In this document: positions 1-7,432 of the stretch, one piece after another
How the letters are laid out: each line of letters begins with the position of its first letter
Numbering within the stretch: position 1 is the first letter of the stretch
Assembly: GCA_015234045.1 (NCBI GenBank)
Contig: JADFWU010000081.1
Coordinates: 1 to 9,134 of the forward strand
DNA from: Magnetococcales bacterium
Lineage (GTDB): Bacteria > Pseudomonadota > Magnetococcia > Magnetococcales > JADFWU01
Direction of reading: 5' to 3'
Length of the DNA stretch: 9,134 nucleotides
Made by a program: the position numbers and the translations under genes
The notes under the pieces: generated by a model
Told to the model about the DNA's origin: nothing
Database searches by the model: none
The model's input: only the letters and a program-made list of their open reading frames with translations

Positions 1-944
1 TCTTCCCGTGCCACACCAGAAAGCAGTGTCGCTTTGGAACCGAGACGCAAAGCCAGACGCGCAACGTCCATGGCCACATCACCGTCACCGATGACGAGCA
101 CATGTTTGCCAATCTTGCTGGCATAGTCAGAACCAGGACCACCAGCGTGCTCAAAACCACGCAGGAACTCAATAGCGTTGGTGCAGCCTGCACCTTCACC
201 ACCAGGAATAGGAATATCACGGCCATTCTGAGCACCTACGGCCAGAAATACCGCATCATAATCCTTACTGAGTTGGTCCAGAGTAACATCAGTACCAATA
301 TTGGTATTGGTCTTGATTTCCATACCCAGGTCGGTAATACGCTTGATCTCGGCGTCCATGACGTCACGATCAATACGATACCCCATGATGCCGTAACGCA
401 TCATACCACCCAGTTTGGCTTCACGCTCAAAGATGGTCACATTGTGACCGCGCAACGCCAATTGGTATGCGTTGGACAGACCACCAGGTCCACCACCCAC
501 TACCGCAATTTTCTTGTCGGTTTTGGTGGTAGGCTTTTCAAAGCCAAAACCTTTTTCAATGGCATATTGGCCAAGAGCATGCTCAATGGCGTTGATGCCA
601 ATGGTCTCATCACGAAACTGACGATTACATTTGGACTGACAAGGTGCCGGGCAAACCCGACCCATAATCGCTGGGAATGGATTCTTGGTCGTCAAACGAC
701 GCCAAGCAGCTTCCCAGGGATCATCCGCAGGCCAAATGCCGCGCAGAATGTTGTTGTAGCCACGAATATCCTCACCAGCCGGGCAAGCATTGGTGCAGGG
801 CGGCGTACGCTCATTGTACGTAGGACATTTTGTACTGGCTTCGCCGTACGCAACATGGCGTTCTTCATCTTCTTCACGAGAGAAGGGAAGGTACTCCCAT
901 TCTGTCGCTTCTTTGTGGTACCGATTGCTTGGAATATCGGCCAT
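1..944 (-). CDS. dsrL: DsrL-like NAD(P)H:acceptor oxidoreductase, N-terminal 314 residues (cut by window edge)
   Basis: DsrL is a cytoplasmic iron-sulfur flavoprotein related to the small (beta) subunit of glutamate synthase. In sulfur oxidisers it passes electrons between the dissimilatory sulfite reductase DsrAB and NAD(P). Seen here: an N-terminal cysteine-rich region with C40, C50, C54 and then C98, C102, C106 (CPAPC followed by QSKC), the pattern that holds [4Fe-4S] clusters in this family; an FAD-binding GGGPGG glycine motif at residues 150-155, just after a short beta strand; and a second Rossmann motif, GDGDVA, at 285-290 for NAD(P)H. Family members run to about 650 residues, so roughly half is missing beyond position 1. 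The ATG at 944 is chosen because AGAGGAG lies about 8 bases before it and it follows dsrB by 43 bases, in the same operon. A generic GltD-type oxidoreductase would look similar at this level; the position directly after dsrAB makes DsrL the best call. Confidence 0.87.
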   Translation of the reverse strand, partial: MADIPSNRYHKEATEWEYLPFSREEDEERHVAYGEASTKCPTYNERTPPCTNACPAGEDIRGYNNILRGIWPADDPWEAAWRRLTTKNPFPAIMGRVCPAPCQSKCNRQFRDETIGINAIEHALGQYAIEKGFGFEKPTTKTDKKIAVVGGGPGGLSNAYQLALRGHNVTIFEREAKLGGMMRYGIMGYRIDRDVMDAEIKRITDLGMEIKTNTNIGTDVTLDQLSKDYDAVFLAVGAQNGRDIPIPGGEGAGCTNAIEFLRGFEHAGGPGSDYASKIGKHVLVIGDGDVAMDVARLALRLGSKATLLSGVARE

Positions 945-987: not shown

Positions 988-2064
988 TCAGAACCGAACA
1001 TGGGTCGAGGTGTTGAAGGATGTACGAGCATGCCTGTAGGTGTCGATCATGTATGTATCGAACTTAAGGCCGGTCGTTTCAAAGAAGCGTTTCCAACCGA
1101 TCCGATCGATCCACTCACCCATGCGTTCCCAATCACGAGCACCGTCTTTGTAGGCATCGAGGATACGCTTCACAAGCGTACCAACGGCAGGCCAACGTGG
1201 TGGCTCTTGAGGAATACCATGGCAGACAAGCTTCATATTAGCTGGTGCTGTACGAGCGTTGGAGTTTTTACCACCAACCCAGATTGCCAGTTTGGAGTAA
1301 TCAGGATGATTGATCTCCATGGCTGGGCAAGCGCCGAAGCAGGCACCGCAGCAGATGCATTTCTCTTCAACAACCATCAGGGACGGCTTACCGTTCACTG
1401 TGGTAGGACGAATAGCGGCAACAGGGCAACGTGCCACTGTGCTGGGCATTTCGCAGATGCCGGAGAGAATGTCATGGTTGATCCGTGGCGGACGGGTATG
1501 CTGAATGATCACAGCAATGTCAGCCTGACCGCCGCAGTTGATTTCGCAGCAACTGGTGGAGAGCTTAACCCGGTTGGGCATCTCTTCCACGATGTATTCA
1601 TCATAGACGATATCCATGATGGACTTAGCCACACCAGAGGCATCAGTCGCAGGAATATCGCAGTGCAACCAACCCTGGGTATGCGCGATGGCGGATACGG
1701 AAGGTCCGGTACCACCAACGGGATGTCCAAGATCGTTCAAGTCCTTGATCAGGGCTTCAACGTTGTCCCAGGACGGGGTCATGAATTCTACGTTGTTCCG
1801 AACGGTCCAGCGCAGAAAACCGTCTGCATACTTGTCAGCCAGATCGCAGAAGCGACGGATGATGGTAGCAGTGTCTTGACGCTCGGTGCCAGCACGTACG
1901 GTATAGAGCACATCGCCACTCTCGGCAACATGCTTCAGCACGCCAGGGCGGGGCCGCTCATGATATTTCCACTTGCCATAGTTTTTCTGGCAAACGGGAT
2001 GAAGGAAATCCCAGGCATTTGGCGGGCCGGATTCAATGGTTGTCCATGTTCTTTCTGCAGCCAT
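988..2064 (-). CDS. dsrB: Dissimilatory sulfite reductase subunit beta (DsrB)
   Basis: This is the beta subunit of the cytoplasmic alpha2beta2 siroheme sulfite reductase. It carries the catalytically competent siroheme-[4Fe-4S] site and, with DsrC, interconverts sulfite and protein-bound sulfur; in a sulfur oxidiser it runs in reverse. The 358-residue length is normal. Siroheme-cluster cysteines are C135, C172, C173 and C177. Their spacing (37, 1, 4) equals that of C151, C188, C189 and C193 in the Desulfovibrio vulgaris enzyme. An inserted ferredoxin domain shows C213 and then C236, C239, C242 in a CICCGAC motif, with C246 in GACPAM. Conserved blocks such as HTQGW before C135, NEPPRW-like QEPPRW at 286-291 and RIGWKRFF at 321-328 are intact, and the chain ends in an aromatic residue as in other DsrB. 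The gene follows dsrA by 62 bases. A GGGAG ribosome-binding sequence lies about 9 bases before the ATG and sits in a small hairpin. No damage is visible. Confidence 0.98.
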   Translation of the reverse strand: MAAERTWTTIESGPPNAWDFLHPVCQKNYGKWKYHERPRPGVLKHVAESGDVLYTVRAGTERQDTATIIRRFCDLADKYADGFLRWTVRNNVEFMTPSWDNVEALIKDLNDLGHPVGGTGPSVSAIAHTQGWLHCDIPATDASGVAKSIMDIVYDEYIVEEMPNRVKLSTSCCEINCGGQADIAVIIQHTRPPRINHDILSGICEMPSTVARCPVAAIRPTTVNGKPSLMVVEEKCICCGACFGACPAMEINHPDYSKLAIWVGGKNSNARTAPANMKLVCHGIPQEPPRWPAVGTLVKRILDAYKDGARDWERMGEWIDRIGWKRFFETTGLKFDTYMIDTYRHARTSFNTSTHVRF

Positions 2065-2126: not shown

Positions 2127-3356
2127 TTAGAGGCTGATCTCTTTAAGCGGATCATGATCATACCCGGCTTTGAAGTATGGATTATCCCGAGGATGGGTAA
2201 CCATATCAATGCTGGTATCGAGTTCGGCACCTTCCAGGAAGGCATGCATACCGATACGCTCGATGAACTCACCAAGACGTTCGTGGTCCAGAGCATTGTC
2301 AGCCCAGAAGTCGAGGATCTGTTCAATCAGCTCAACAAAAGCTTCCTGCTCTTCTTCAGTATCCACTTTGATGAAAGGAATCATCATTGCGCCGAGCATG
2401 TTGCCGACTTTCAGAATACCTTTACCACCACACAGCAGAGAAACACCACGTTCTTTACCTGGTGACAGCGCTTTGGTCATCACGTTGATGCAGTGCATAC
2501 AGCGCACGCAATCATCGTTATTGATCTTGATGCTGCCAGATTCCATGGTGATTGCGTTTGTGGGACAACGTGTAACTACGTTGTTGACCACATAGTCCAT
2601 TCCTTTGGAATCAATAAATGCTTTGACTTCAGCTTCATCCACTTGGATGTCGCCTTTCCAAGTGCCGATGACAGCATAGTCCGCACGCTGAATCGCGTTG
2701 GTACAGTCATTGGGGCAGCCGGAAAATTTGAATTTGGCTTTGTAAGGCAGCGCAGGACGATGAACCAAATCAGTGAAGTAGGTCAACATCTTGTGGTGCA
2801 CATTCAAAGTATCGTAGCACGACATTTCGCAACGCGCAGGACCGACACAAGAAGCCGCTGTACGTACACAGGCACCAGCACCACCGAGATCCCAACCTTT
2901 TTGGTTGAATTCATCGAAGGCGGCCTGAACTTTGTCAGCTTCAATACCGATCAACTGCAAGTTACCAGACTGGCCGTGACAGTTAATCAGGCCTGAGCCA
3001 TATTTTTCCCAGATATCGCAAATCTCACGAAGAGATTTACTGGAGTAGTGCAATCCTGGAGCAGGCTGGATACGAACCGTATGAAACTCTTTAGCCTCTG
3101 GAAACAGATCAGAAACCATAGAATAACGGCTGATGATACCAGCACCGTAACCATGAACGCCGACCACACCACCCTTCCAGTAACCCATTTTGGTCTGGTA
3201 AGAGTAGTTAAGCTGATCCAGAGCACCCCGGATCATGGTGTTACCGGTTTTTTTGAATTGCTCTTTAAAGCCTTTGATAAAGCTAGGCCAGGGTCCACTT
3301 TCCAGATCATCCAGCAAGGGCGTAGGATTCAACTGGAACTCATTTCCATCAGCCAT
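2127..3356 (-). CDS. dsrA: Dissimilatory sulfite reductase subunit alpha (DsrA)
   Basis: This is the alpha subunit of the siroheme-containing sulfite reductase, partner of DsrB. It is the first gene of the visible operon. At 409 residues it is close to the usual length. Cysteines C170, C176, C214 and C218 (spacing 6, 38, 4) match C177, C183, C221 and C225 of Desulfovibrio vulgaris DsrA, and lie in CVGPARC and SGCPNDC. The ferredoxin-like insert is marked by C264 (TRCPTNAI) and C283, C286, C289 (CVRCMHC), again with the standard spacing of 19, 3, 3. The N-terminal LESGPWPSF block and the C-terminal HERLGEFIERIG block are typical of DsrA. The ATG at 3356 has GGGAGAA about 7 bases upstream. No frameshift or missing ligand is visible, so the enzyme should be functional. 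Sequence alone does not separate the oxidative from the reductive type with certainty; the adjacent dsrL favours oxidative. Confidence 0.98.
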   Translation of the reverse strand: MADGNEFQLNPTPLLDDLESGPWPSFIKGFKEQFKKTGNTMIRGALDQLNYSYQTKMGYWKGGVVGVHGYGAGIISRYSMVSDLFPEAKEFHTVRIQPAPGLHYSSKSLREICDIWEKYGSGLINCHGQSGNLQLIGIEADKVQAAFDEFNQKGWDLGGAGACVRTAASCVGPARCEMSCYDTLNVHHKMLTYFTDLVHRPALPYKAKFKFSGCPNDCTNAIQRADYAVIGTWKGDIQVDEAEVKAFIDSKGMDYVVNNVVTRCPTNAITMESGSIKINNDDCVRCMHCINVMTKALSPGKERGVSLLCGGKGILKVGNMLGAMMIPFIKVDTEEEQEAFVELIEQILDFWADNALDHERLGEFIERIGMHAFLEGAELDTSIDMVTHPRDNPYFKAGYDHDPLKEISL

Positions 3357-3436
3357 AGGTGTTCTCCCGAAAGATGTGGCATTTGAATTCCGCGTTCAAA
3401 GCGCGATTTTGGTGCGAACCATCACGATGAACGAAT

Positions 3437-3464
3437 ATTATGATATTCTTGAACATATACTCAA
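3437..3464 (-). promoter_or_regulatory. Candidate sigma-70 promoter of the dsr operon
   Basis: On the minus strand, TTGAGT (3464-3459) and CATAAT (3442-3437) are 16 bases apart. They match the TTGACA and TATAAT consensus boxes at 4 and 5 of 6 positions. Transcription would start near 3430 and leave a leader of about 75 bases before dsrA. The spacer and the -35 box lie inside the inverted repeat at 3443-3470. This is a by-eye match in AT-rich DNA. A second possible -10, TATAGT at 3540-3535, lies upstream. Confidence 0.35.
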
Positions 3465-3470
3465 GAATAT
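3443..3470. repeat. Perfect 10+10 bp inverted repeat upstream of dsrA (operator-like)
   Basis: ATATTCTTGA at 3443-3452 is exactly reverse-complementary to TCAAGAATAT at 3461-3470, with 8 bases (ACATATAC) between, giving a 28-bp dyad with a further symmetric ATAT in its centre. It is about 87-114 bases before the dsrA start codon and overlaps the candidate promoter. A binding site for a dimeric regulator is the natural reading. An RNA hairpin is less likely, because most of the repeat would lie upstream of the predicted transcription start. Confidence 0.6.
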
Positions 3471-3776
3471 AAACGCAGCAGAAATTTGCATTTCCAGCAG
3501 CTTTGCTACTTAAAACATATTGAAACAAACTGTTACTATAAACCAAATAAATCTTTATGTGCCGAAAGACAGGCACAGAGTTTTCATCTCCATCCCACTT
3601 AACTGGAAAATGATACGCTGTGACGCTGCTGAATTCAATGGAATATCAGCAATCCCTTCAATAGAAATTTCTGATATATGATGAAGGCGTGTTCATGTCA
3701 GCTGTTGATGATTTATATTTCTGTCCTTTTCCTGCATGGAGAAGCTTGCCAGAAGTGATCTGATTCGCCACCATAA

Positions 3777-5114
3777 GTGACATCGTATTTTCATACTAAT
3801 CCGTATAATCTTCCCATTGAACACACTCTGTTTCAATGGTTGCAGTTGAACCACCGCCTGGCGCTATTTATCAGGAGAAGCCTTTTGTTTGACCATCATA
3901 TCATCGACCAGGTGATCGAACTGTGGGAAAAGGACAATAGTGGCGATTCGTCACGTCCGCGATTTCGCCATGTCAAACAGATCATGGAGATCGTCTATCT
4001 GGCAGGCTTGAAGCGTGAGGAAGAACGACCTGTACAGCTTTGTGTCGCCTTGGCGCAATCCGACACATTCCCCGATTGGGGCTTGAGTGGCGAACAGATG
4101 GTGGTAAAACTTGAAAAACGACTGCCATTTAGCGTTGATTCATTGGTGAAACTGGCACCCGCATTTGATCCTTCAACAACCATTATGGCTGTTAGCCAAG
4201 TATCGGATGAACCGGATGAGCTCGAAATTTGGGGCGCGGTCTTCACCACCGAACGCGGCCATAACCGCTTTGATCCTCTACCGTTTGGTGTCAATCAGCC
4301 CGATTTATTGATCATTTCATCCCGCATTCCTGGTTCATTGAGCGTGCATCGTGGCAGCCTTACCATCGCACGATTCAACGCGGGTAAATTCAGCCAACCT
4401 ACGCCTACACCGTTCACTTCCACTCTCATTGGTTGGAGTATTCTCAGAGTCATCCGAGAACATCCTGAATATAAACGCTACGGCACCCGTTACTGGCGTA
4501 CCTATCGGGATTTAATCAATGAATTGCTGCAAGAGTCCAGCGAACGAGGTCATGGTGGTAGTATCATATGGATTCCTGAATCTTTAGTGACACAAACCAG
4601 GCATAGAATTGTTTCTAAACATGTTATTTCCAATAATGAGTTGGAAGGTGTGCCACTGCTTGGTGAACTGTGTGCCATGGAAACCCTGCAAGGACACACT
4701 TCACCCGGTCCGAATGGTATTCCTGCTCCTGATCCCAATGTGCTTGCACAGGCAATCATTGCATGCAAACGAAAAGTCGTTGAACATGTTGAACTTTTAG
4801 CGCAGTTTACCCGTGTTGATGGTGCTTTGATCATTTCTGACCGTCTGCGCCCCATCTCATTTGGATCGGTCCTGATGGCACGAACATGGCCACACGAAGT
4901 CGTTGTCGGTTCCGAAGAGGGATTTCCTCAAGACACTTTGGATACGTCCCGCTATGGCACTCGGCATAATTCGGCGGTGAACTTTGTCGGACATTCGCCC
5001 GGCTCGGTTGCGTTCGTTCTTTCACAAGATGGTCCAATCGCCGGGTTGACAAGACGAGATGATGAAGCGGTCTACTGGTGGCCTGATTGTCTCAGTAGAA
5101 TTTGGGTTGGTTAG
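3777..5114 (+). CDS. DACNV-type protein with a C-terminal diadenylate cyclase-like domain
   Basis: The 445-residue protein resembles the family named 'putative sensor domain DACNV-containing protein'. An N-terminal sensor-like region (about 100-205; LVKLAPAFDP at 123-132, IWGAVF at 151-156, GSLSVHRG at 186-193) precedes a linker and a domain like the diadenylate cyclase (DAC/DisA_N) fold at about 255-430. In that domain, RGHGGSIIWIP (257-267) forms the first strand, VDGALII (347-353) contains the DGA motif that contacts ATP and metal in true cyclases, GSVL follows at 363-366, and GTRHNSA (394-400) aligns with the GTRHR(A/T)A motif. The second arginine of RHR is N398 here. SQDGPI at 416-421 closes the domain. 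No membrane segment or signal peptide is seen, so it is probably cytoplasmic. The GTG at 3777 is used because a stop codon (3774-3776) lies directly before it and the N-terminus looks family-like, but no good Shine-Dalgarno is visible. It is divergent from dsrA. Whether it makes c-di-AMP, senses a nucleotide or is inactive cannot be told. Confidence 0.78.
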   Translation: MTSYFHTNPYNLPIEHTLFQWLQLNHRLALFIRRSLLFDHHIIDQVIELWEKDNSGDSSRPRFRHVKQIMEIVYLAGLKREEERPVQLCVALAQSDTFPDWGLSGEQMVVKLEKRLPFSVDSLVKLAPAFDPSTTIMAVSQVSDEPDELEIWGAVFTTERGHNRFDPLPFGVNQPDLLIISSRIPGSLSVHRGSLTIARFNAGKFSQPTPTPFTSTLIGWSILRVIREHPEYKRYGTRYWRTYRDLINELLQESSERGHGGSIIWIPESLVTQTRHRIVSKHVISNNELEGVPLLGELCAMETLQGHTSPGPNGIPAPDPNVLAQAIIACKRKVVEHVELLAQFTRVDGALIISDRLRPISFGSVLMARTWPHEVVVGSEEGFPQDTLDTSRYGTRHNSAVNFVGHSPGSVAFVLSQDGPIAGLTRRDDEAVYWWPDCLSRIWVG

Positions 5115-5197: not shown

Positions 5198-6256
5198 TTA
5201 CGACCGACTTTCAAAGGTAATTCTAGGATCAACCATCACATAGGTGATATCTGTCAATAATTTCGTAACAAGCCCCACAAGCGTAAAGAAATAGAGCGTT
5301 GCCATCACCACAGGATAATCTCGATTTACCACCGATTCATAACCCAGCAATCCCAGACCATCCAGACTGAAAATAGTCTCAATAAGCAGACTGCCACTGA
5401 AAAATGCCGCTACAAATGAACCTGGAAAACCGGTGACCAATGGTATCATGGCGTTTCGGAATACATGACCATACAAAACACCGCGTTCAGACAACCCTTT
5501 AGCGCGAGCAGTGGTGACATACTGTTTTGAAATCTCTTCCAAAAAGCTATTCTTGGTCAACATGGTCATAACCGCAAATGAGCCCATGACCGAAGCGGTG
5601 ATCGGTAATACCATATGCCACAGATAGTCGGTGATTTGTGCTGGCCATGCGAGGGTTTCCCAGTTGTCTGAAACAATCCCACGCATGGGAAAAATATCCC
5701 AAAAACTGCCGCCACCAAACAATACAATCAGCATCAAACCAAGTACAAAACCGGGAATGGAATAGCCAACCAATACCAGAGTGGAAGAGAGAGCATCAAA
5801 ACGACTACCATCTCTCACCGCTTTGGCAATTCCCAGCGGAATGCTGATCAAATAGGTCAACAGAAAGGTCCAGACCCCTAAGGATATGGAAACCGGTAGT
5901 TTATCAATGACCAGATCCACCACTTTCCGATGATAGTAGTAGGATTCACCAAACTCAAACTGGATATAGTTGCCCAACATCAGCAAAAATCGCTCATGGG
6001 CTGGCTTGTCAAAGCCGTACAGCTTACGCAACGCCTCAATTTGAGCAGGATCAAGCCCTTTAGCGCCTTGGTAACTGCTCATACCTTGCGTGCTGGTACT
6101 GCGGCTTTCACCCGCCATATGACTCTGTTCCATCAGTGAAATCATTCGTTCCACAGGCCCGCCAGGGACAAACTGAATCACCAAAAATGTGATGGCCATT
6201 ACGCCAAACAGCGTAGGAATCATAAGCAGGATTCGACGGACTATATAGGCAGCCAT
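5198..6256 (-). CDS. yejB: YejB-type peptide ABC transporter permease
   Basis: This is an inner-membrane permease subunit of the oligopeptide/microcin C-type (DppB family) ABC importers. In Escherichia coli YejB works with permease YejE, ATPase YejF and binding protein YejA. The 352 residues (364 in E. coli) align by eye along the whole length: an N-terminal helix (about 9-29) ending in VPGGPVER, a periplasmic stretch with GLDP and YGFDKPAHERF, membrane helices near 122-143, 155-181, 214-233, 274-297 and 317-337, and the cytoplasmic EAA loop around 246-268 (TTARAKGLSE, then HVFRNAM) that docks to the ATPase. The tail VDPRITFE is also YejB-like. It starts 9 bases after the stop of the upstream lipoprotein gene, so the two are probably cotranscribed. 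No clear Shine-Dalgarno is seen before ATG 6256, which fits translational coupling. No yejA, yejE or yejF lies downstream; a convergent gene follows instead. Confidence 0.92.
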   Translation of the reverse strand: MAAYIVRRILLMIPTLFGVMAITFLVIQFVPGGPVERMISLMEQSHMAGESRSTSTQGMSSYQGAKGLDPAQIEALRKLYGFDKPAHERFLLMLGNYIQFEFGESYYYHRKVVDLVIDKLPVSISLGVWTFLLTYLISIPLGIAKAVRDGSRFDALSSTLVLVGYSIPGFVLGLMLIVLFGGGSFWDIFPMRGIVSDNWETLAWPAQITDYLWHMVLPITASVMGSFAVMTMLTKNSFLEEISKQYVTTARAKGLSERGVLYGHVFRNAMIPLVTGFPGSFVAAFFSGSLLIETIFSLDGLGLLGYESVVNRDYPVVMATLYFFTLVGLVTKLLTDITYVMVDPRITFESRS

Positions 6257-6265
6257 GATGCGCTG

Positions 6266-7375
6266 TTAAAACCCGGATGCGTTGTGGTTCTGTTGTTTTT
6301 TCTTAAGTTGATCGCGCAGTGTATCGCGTTCGTTCAGTGCTTCTTTAACCCTATGAAGTGCGGCATTCATTTTATCATCTGGGTGGAGCATTGCCCGATC
6401 TGCTTTTGTGTACCAACTCAGAGCGGTTGTCAAATCACCACTGGTTTCACTGCATGCGCCCATATTAAACAGAAAAGCTGGTGCATCCGGTGAAAGTTTA
6501 TGGCCATGGCTCCAGATTTCGCACGCTCTATCCATGCGATTCGCTCTGGCGAACTCCATGCCGCGTTGCAATTTCTTTCGGGCAGCTTCCGACTCAATAC
6601 CTTCTTCCTCTTCCATAAGCGCTATGGAGACTGTCACAAGATGTGGTGCAATATCCTGACGCATACGCAGGATAGCGGACTCTCTTGCCTGATCCATCAG
6701 TTGCGTACCAGCAGCAATCATTCGGTTATCTTCATCAGGACATCCCTGATCACTCTTGGTTGTTGAGATCTTGCGTGCATAGACGATGCGACCGGTTTCT
6801 ACTTCTATGATTTTTGGAGTAAATTTAAAGATTGCTGTCCGTTTAAGGCAGCTGATAGTGACTTTTTTCTTCTTTACACATTTCGTTACATCAACACCTA
6901 AAATTCGTTTGCCGGTTTTGACTTTTTGCACACATTTTTTGCGTTTCTGTGTGTATGACTCATCAGTGACTGTATTGGCATTGATTTGTCCGGTGTAAAT
7001 TGCTTTAGCACCGACCAAACGGCCTACTTCAGCGGCTGCACTGTTATCAAAAAAGAAGTCAGCATTGGTTTTTTTAATCTCACTCATCACCCGATTCAGC
7101 TGATTTCGCTCAACCAAAGTAAAATAGGGCGCTTCACCAACCTGGACAGAGGCGAGCATGGCTTCAACCTCTGAGGCAACGGAACGGCCATCCTTACCTT
7201 TATAATTGACCACGGCAATCTGACGCAGCTTGGCAGCTTCGCTATATTTTGCGGCTTGCAACTGTGTGGTTTTAACAGATGGTGCCATACACGAGGTCAT
7301 CAAAATGAGGCCCGACAAAAGCACAACTGTGCGTTTGAGCCACCCAGAGAAGGAAAGTATTTGAGGATAAGGCAC
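6266..7375 (-). CDS. CsgG-like/TPR outer-membrane lipoprotein of unknown function
   Basis: The predicted 369-residue protein has a basic N-terminus (LKR), a hydrophobic core and a lipobox-like LMTSC, making Cys29 the likely lipidated residue. Residues about 50-130 resemble the CsgG/curli-assembly N-terminal fold: IAVVNYKG as first strand, FTLVERNQL (86-94) as the conserved 'verr-ql' segment, then GRLVGAKAIYTGQI. A very basic, three-cysteine stretch follows (about 144-179), with another strand region to about 205. Residues about 265-330 form at least one TPR-like helical repeat (ACEIW...LSPDAPAFLFNMGACSE..G), and the end is a charged coiled coil (about 335-365). The GTG at 7375 is preferred over an upstream TTG (7399): AGGAG stands 7 bases before it and it gives a signal peptide of normal length. 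The adjacent permease gene suggests a shared envelope role. It is not curli CsgG itself; no curli genes are present. Exact function is unknown. Confidence 0.75.
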   Translation of the reverse strand: MPYPQILSFSGWLKRTVVLLSGLILMTSCMAPSVKTTQLQAAKYSEAAKLRQIAVVNYKGKDGRSVASEVEAMLASVQVGEAPYFTLVERNQLNRVMSEIKKTNADFFFDNSAAAEVGRLVGAKAIYTGQINANTVTDESYTQKRKKCVQKVKTGKRILGVDVTKCVKKKKVTISCLKRTAIFKFTPKIIEVETGRIVYARKISTTKSDQGCPDEDNRMIAAGTQLMDQARESAILRMRQDIAPHLVTVSIALMEEEEGIESEAARKKLQRGMEFARANRMDRACEIWSHGHKLSPDAPAFLFNMGACSETSGDLTTALSWYTKADRAMLHPDDKMNAALHRVKEALNERDTLRDQLKKKQQNHNASGF

Positions 7376-7432
7376 GGATAAACTCCTGAGAAAGTCCAAT
7401 GGATATTCTTTTCAACTTTTTGATTTTTCAAT

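Follow-up and report, generated by a model that had tools for sequence, protein, structure and literature searches.

A divergent diadenylate cyclase-like DACNV-DAC protein encoded beside dsrA in Magnetococcales

Results

Genes and features of the locus

The window, by which we mean the whole stretch of DNA analysed (9,134 nucleotides of contig JADFWU010000081.1 from a Magnetococcales bacterium, assembly GCA_015234045.1), carries a gene for a two-domain protein next to a cluster of dsr genes. The following features were assigned, with residue numbers referring to the open frame 3777-5114.

3..944, minus strand: dsrL-like oxidoreductase, truncated at the contig end; relatives have the same gene order
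988..2064, minus strand: dsrB (TIGR02066, 470 bits)
2127..3356, minus strand: dsrA (TIGR02064, 512 bits, cut-off 393)
3357..3884, no strand: upstream region shared by dsrA and the DACNV gene, between the two starts
3777..3884, plus strand: in-frame 5' extension from a GTG, probably untranslated; unconserved in homologues, pLDDT about 38-69 in the model
3873..3877, plus strand: Shine-Dalgarno-like AGGAG, predicted from sequence, 7 bases before TTG 3885
3885..5114, plus strand: probable true coding sequence of the DACNV-DAC protein, 409 aa, TTG start
3888..4412, plus strand: N-terminal DACNV domain with a predicted degenerate DAC fold, residues 38-212 (Pfam PF21751 and model of the domain alone)
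4422..5099, plus strand: C-terminal DAC-fold domain, residues 216-441 (VIA-align to DisA)
4818..4826, plus strand: DGA motif, residues 348-350, D348 invariant
4956..4967, plus strand: GTRH, residues 394-397; G394, R396 and H397 invariant
4968..4970, plus strand: N398, third position of RHR
5022..5033, plus strand: SQDG, residues 416-419; S416 and D418 invariant
5198..6256, minus strand: YejB-type ABC permease, convergent neighbour (NF011712, 473 bits; synteny in several relatives)
6266-7399, minus strand: CsgG/LpoB-like protein, 377 aa, with a TPR-like C-terminus

The frame 3777-5114 on the plus strand was confirmed and comprises 445 codons. Since the first residue of homologues aligns with residue 37 or 38 of this frame, an AGGAG precedes the TTG, and an ATG or GTG lies within two codons of the equivalent of TTG 3885 in six of the seven dsr-adjacent orthologues, the first 36 codons are probably untranslated. 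TTG 3885 is thus probably the real start of the gene. The product then has 409 aa, and about 528 bp separate the gene from dsrA, compared with about 420 bp otherwise. The divergent arrangement with dsrA given in the preliminary description of the locus was borne out, dsrA lying on the minus strand and the DACNV gene on the plus strand. Within the shared upstream region, promoter- and terminator-like sites were no more frequent than in shuffled sequences, and an Rfam search gave no match.

Domain composition and C-terminal fold

The Pfam family DACNV matches residues 60-155 with an E-value of 2.1e-16 (60.3 bits, cut-off 27). As the protein reaches the DACNV gathering score and its C-terminal half has a DAC fold, it belongs to the DACNV-DAC family. 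The DGA motif of diadenylate cyclases is present (D348-A350), and all the motif residues listed in the preliminary description (DGA 348-350, GTRH 394-397 and N398) were found in place. Because the protein has RHN in place of the complete RHR motif and Pfam DAC (PF02457) scores only 16.6 bits on residues 339-420 against a cut-off of 27, it is not classed as a canonical DAC enzyme. PADLOC gave no match and, for the DACNV-DAC protein, the sole NCBIfam match lay far under its cut-off, which left no lead towards a function in defence; a PDB sequence search returned only weak matches, to designed repeat proteins.

An AlphaFold2 model was built from a 40-sequence alignment (mean pLDDT 85.7). In VIA-align comparisons, the best match of residues 216-441 was DisA of M. 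tuberculosis (Z 13.9), with Z 13.5 for DisA of T. maritima and about 11 for CdaA/DacA; the top 40 structure entries were all DACs, and the next entry had a Z of 3.3. The preliminary description had proposed a comparison with DisA and CdaA and named a mismatched fold as grounds for giving up the DAC reading; since the model matches DAC structures, that reading stands. In an hhalign comparison of the family with five canonical DACs, the GTRH stretch alone was anchored.

The N-terminal domain resembles a DAC domain in its predicted fold

Residues 38-212 were modelled as a separate unit, with an alignment restricted to DACNV sequences (31 rows, pLDDT 84.3, pTM 0.82). The resulting model had a Foldseek probability of 0.99 to DisA of M. 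tuberculosis. In VIA-align, the 40 best entries were DACs without exception (Z from 8.3 to 6.2), and the next scored 3.1; a Z near 8 is modest in itself, and it is the gap to the unrelated entries that carries the match. The GTRH-bearing helix of the C-terminal domain is without a counterpart in the predicted secondary structure of DACNV. As hhalign detected no sequence signal between the DACNV and DAC domains (E 0.1), the DAC-like nature of DACNV is a matter of predicted fold. A search for viral structure matches found none. Judging from the models, the window protein may be a fused pair of a degenerate DAC and a DAC.

The third arginine of RHR is absent throughout the clade

Arginine at the position of N398 was found in none of 64 distinct Magnetococcales sequences, where this position is occupied by N (24), A (14), T (11), S (7), G (6), H (1) or I (1), compared with 23 of 28 DACNV-DAC sequences outside Magnetococcales, the rest having Q (2), K, L or S (1 each). 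No variation was seen at D348, G394, R396, H397, S416 or D418 among 63 Magnetococcales and the 28 outside sequences, some of which share as little as about 16% overall identity with the window protein. Specific to the Magnetococcales clade are the invariant W265 and W371 and the near-invariant P420. The asparagine singled out in the preliminary description is thus no quirk of a single protein and reflects a state of the whole clade. In six planctomycete DACNV-DAC proteins (L186, L187, L191, L192, L195 and L196), the third letter of DGA differs while Asp and Gly are kept.

A quick tree groups the Magnetococcales sequences in a single clade (support 100) and places Methylobacter (R) and one planctomycete (K) next to it, which fits a single ancestral loss of the third arginine. 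Seen at the level of sequence, the free drift at position 398 beside a frozen pocket suggests that the pocket is still used without this residue. Mutants with RHR changed to AAA are inactive in M. tuberculosis DacA (PMC3328451), B. thuringiensis CdaS (PMC4568413) and M. bovis CdaM (PMC13022847), and the ligand contacts named for S. aureus DacA are the Asp and Gly of DGA and the Thr preceding RHR (PMC6368335). We found no published experiment in which only the third residue was changed; as the mutants above alter all three together, they do not decide whether the third arginine is needed.

Distribution of DACNV in Magnetococcales and beyond

Of 48 Magnetococcales genomes, 43 contain DACNV, and individual genomes carry as many as three full-length copies. 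The DACNV model matched 0 of the 251 other Pseudomonadota genomes sampled, in keeping with the scarcity in this phylum that had been suggested for c-di-AMP signalling. The family is not strictly confined to Magnetococcales, since a Methylobacter MAG outside the 251-genome sample has a DACNV-DAC copy. Beside the stand-alone form, there are paralogues with REC-PAS-DACNV-DAC or GAF-DACNV-DAC architecture; such a variety of input types would be expected of an output module or enzyme. No plasmid copies of DACNV-DAC were found. In genome G009, a cyclic-nucleotide-binding protein (L032:8543-9007) is encoded directly upstream of the DACNV gene, in frame and with one stop codon between.

A search with PF02457 found no canonical DAC in Magnetococcales. 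Three matches exceeded the cut-off, namely one DACNV-DAC protein (27.3 bits) and a pair of short divergent proteins (about 28.7 bits). This pair represents a second divergent DAC-like family (L205:348-1424 in G025, 358 aa, and L206:495-1448 in G036, 317 aa), whose members lack the third arginine (GARHA, GGRHA), have SQDG and carry no Pfam N-terminal domain. The c-di-AMP receptor family PF06153 was not found in Magnetococcales.

A PgpH-type hydrolase is encoded in nearly all Magnetococcales

The PgpH-type family 7TM-7TMR_HD (PF07698) was present in 46 of 48 Magnetococcales genomes; among 251 other Pseudomonadota, a single genome had a match above the cut-off. The source-genome protein (G000:C73, L199:982-3468) has 828 residues and the full 7TMR-HDED, 7TM and HD architecture of the PgpH family; its gene adjoins a putative phoH-like gene, assigned from sequence. 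Its closest PDB match is the HD domain of Listeria Lmo1466 (E 2e-61), Lmo1466 being the c-di-AMP hydrolase PgpH. Given a PgpH-type hydrolase and no canonical DAC, DACNV-DAC is the only widespread synthase candidate of the order. A search for the GdpP GGDEF family gave mostly sub-threshold, GGDEF-like matches. In Planctomycetota there was no association between the two genes, PgpH occurring in 8 of 20 genomes with DACNV and 10 of 20 without. Methylobacter has DACNV and lacks PgpH, and genome G039 (93% complete) has PgpH and lacks DACNV. Since the co-occurrence falls within one clade, it amounts to close to one event.

The dsr neighbourhood is partly conserved

The divergent DACNV/dsrA pair was found in eight genomes of five families (f1, f2, f3, f4 and f11), one of the genomes being presumably that of Magnetococcus marinus MC-1. 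Both DACNV and the dsrA type of the window occur in 24 genomes, where the genes are adjacent in 8 and apart in 16. In a further 19 genomes DACNV is present but this dsrA type is missing, and in 4 of these no dsrA was detected at all; as several of the assemblies are incomplete MAGs, absences are provisional. The preliminary description linked the gene to dsr and would have dropped the link had homologues been scattered without it; the adjacency is real and conserved, but the 16 genomes with the genes apart and the 19 without a close dsrA show such scattering in part. The synteny block often takes in the convergent ABC permease, and neighbour clustering over 40 loci gave no conserved partner outside the dsr/ABC-permease block; in other lineages, an ETF-QO or TonB receptor lies near the DACNV gene. 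We read the dsr neighbourhood as an inherited, partly kept ancestral gene order that does not define function, the shared upstream region giving no sign of joint regulation. Two dsrA types, about 72% and about 48% identical to the window dsrA, occur in Magnetococcales, both being present in ten genomes; these identity groups match the two dsrAB copies described for the order (PMC6783814).

Discussion

With somewhat better than even confidence, we regard the window protein, a stand-alone member of a Magnetococcales-wide DACNV-DAC family, as most likely the order's diadenylate cyclase; it would be a divergent cyclase that supplies the substrate of PgpH. From the computed fold, residue conservation, clade-wide arginine loss, paralogue architectures and PgpH presence, we infer a scheme of catalysis, product, regulation and PgpH pairing. 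The C-terminal DAC domain would bind ATP through D348 of DGA, G394-T-R396-H397 and S416/D418, and two DAC domains meeting head to head would condense two ATP molecules to give c-di-AMP or a closely related cyclic dinucleotide, the cyclisation proceeding without the third arginine of RHR. The N-terminal DACNV domain, with its predicted degenerate DAC fold, could set the geometry or regulate the reaction, and the product would be removed by the PgpH-type HD hydrolase, whose gene lies at another site in the genome.

The preliminary description had left the choice among a nucleotide sensor, an altered cyclase and an inactive relative linked to sulfur metabolism. Both the domain architectures of the paralogues and the co-occurrence of PgpH argue for an active cyclase rather than a dead relative. 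The link to sulfur metabolism is weak. Counting against a cyclase are the loss of the arginine in 64 of 64 sequences, the inactivity of the RHR-to-AAA mutants of other DACs, although all three residues differ in these, the sub-threshold PF02457 score, the failure to find PF06153 and the lack of DACNV/PgpH co-variation in Planctomycetota, as well as Methylobacter with DACNV but no PgpH, G039 with the reverse, and the near-single event behind the co-occurrence in Magnetococcales. Two of these points would also suit a catalytically inactive DAC homologue acting as a nucleotide sensor, which would bind ATP or c-di-AMP and signal through a change of conformation: the third RHR residue has been lost and varies freely across the clade (N/A/T/S/G/H/I), and the PF02457 score is low; the N-terminal domain, moreover, already appears to be a degenerate DAC fold in the model. 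However, the remaining pocket residues are invariant across phyla and no other synthase was found to feed either such a sensor or PgpH, and we consider this nucleotide sensor unlikely.

If the protein is active, the arginine loss could instead mark a changed specificity, the product being another cyclic dinucleotide or a linear or mononucleotide. That a single motif position changed in this clade while the others were retained, together with the invariant W265 and W371 and the near-invariant P420, is consistent with this, as is the cyclic-nucleotide-binding protein directly upstream in one genome (L032/L112); but that neighbour occurs in one genome only and the PgpH relative suggests c-di-AMP, which makes a different product improbable. 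More improbable still is that the protein serves sulfur oxidation as a dedicated regulator, expressed together with dsr from the upstream region they share: eight genomes of five families have its gene divergently adjacent to dsrA, which speaks for this reading, yet the genes are apart in the 16 other genomes having both, DACNV is kept in the 19 genomes without the window dsrA type (including the 4 with no dsrA found), and the promoter signal in the shared region is not above chance.

A working cyclase would equip an order of magnetotactic bacteria with a full pair of enzymes for making and breaking down c-di-AMP, with a partner hydrolase nearly absent from the sampled genomes of the phylum (1 of 251), and would show the third arginine of the textbook RHR motif to be dispensable. 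The cultured Magnetococcus marinus MC-1 appears to carry both the DACNV-DAC and the PgpH genes.

DACs act as head-to-head dimers (PMC8573169), so a built-in DACNV partner could, speculatively, position or restrain the active half. A bolder and on balance doubtful extension is that DACNV is a decayed DAC and DACNV-DAC a half-dead fused pair, an asymmetric pseudo-dimer that lets the Magnetococcales cyclase work without the third arginine. If DACNV is a decayed DAC, a named 'sensor' domain of diadenylate cyclases needs redescription. Such a DACNV/DAC pseudo-dimer would be loosely comparable to the animal adenylyl cyclases, with their two unequal halves.

Among known systems, the DisA proteins of M. 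tuberculosis and T. maritima share the DAC fold (Z 13.9-13.5 over 133-136 residues), DGA and GTRH with the window protein, but have a complete RHR and no DACNV; in DisA, the DAC domain is N-terminal and an HhH domain C-terminal (PMC3328451). The CdaA/DacA proteins of Listeria, Bacillus and S. aureus have the same fold (Z about 11) and likewise a C-terminal DAC domain, but membrane helices in place of DACNV and SEE where the window protein has SQD. The candidate partner in the source genome resembles PgpH/Lmo1466 in its HD domain and its 7TMR-HDED and 7TM domains, but is encoded outside the window and known here from its sequence. The other DACNV-DAC proteins, from Methylobacter, Planctomycetota, Lachnospiraceae and Syntrophaceae, have the same two-domain layout and the same six invariant pocket residues; they differ in that most of them (23 of 28) keep the third arginine, which Magnetococcales never do.
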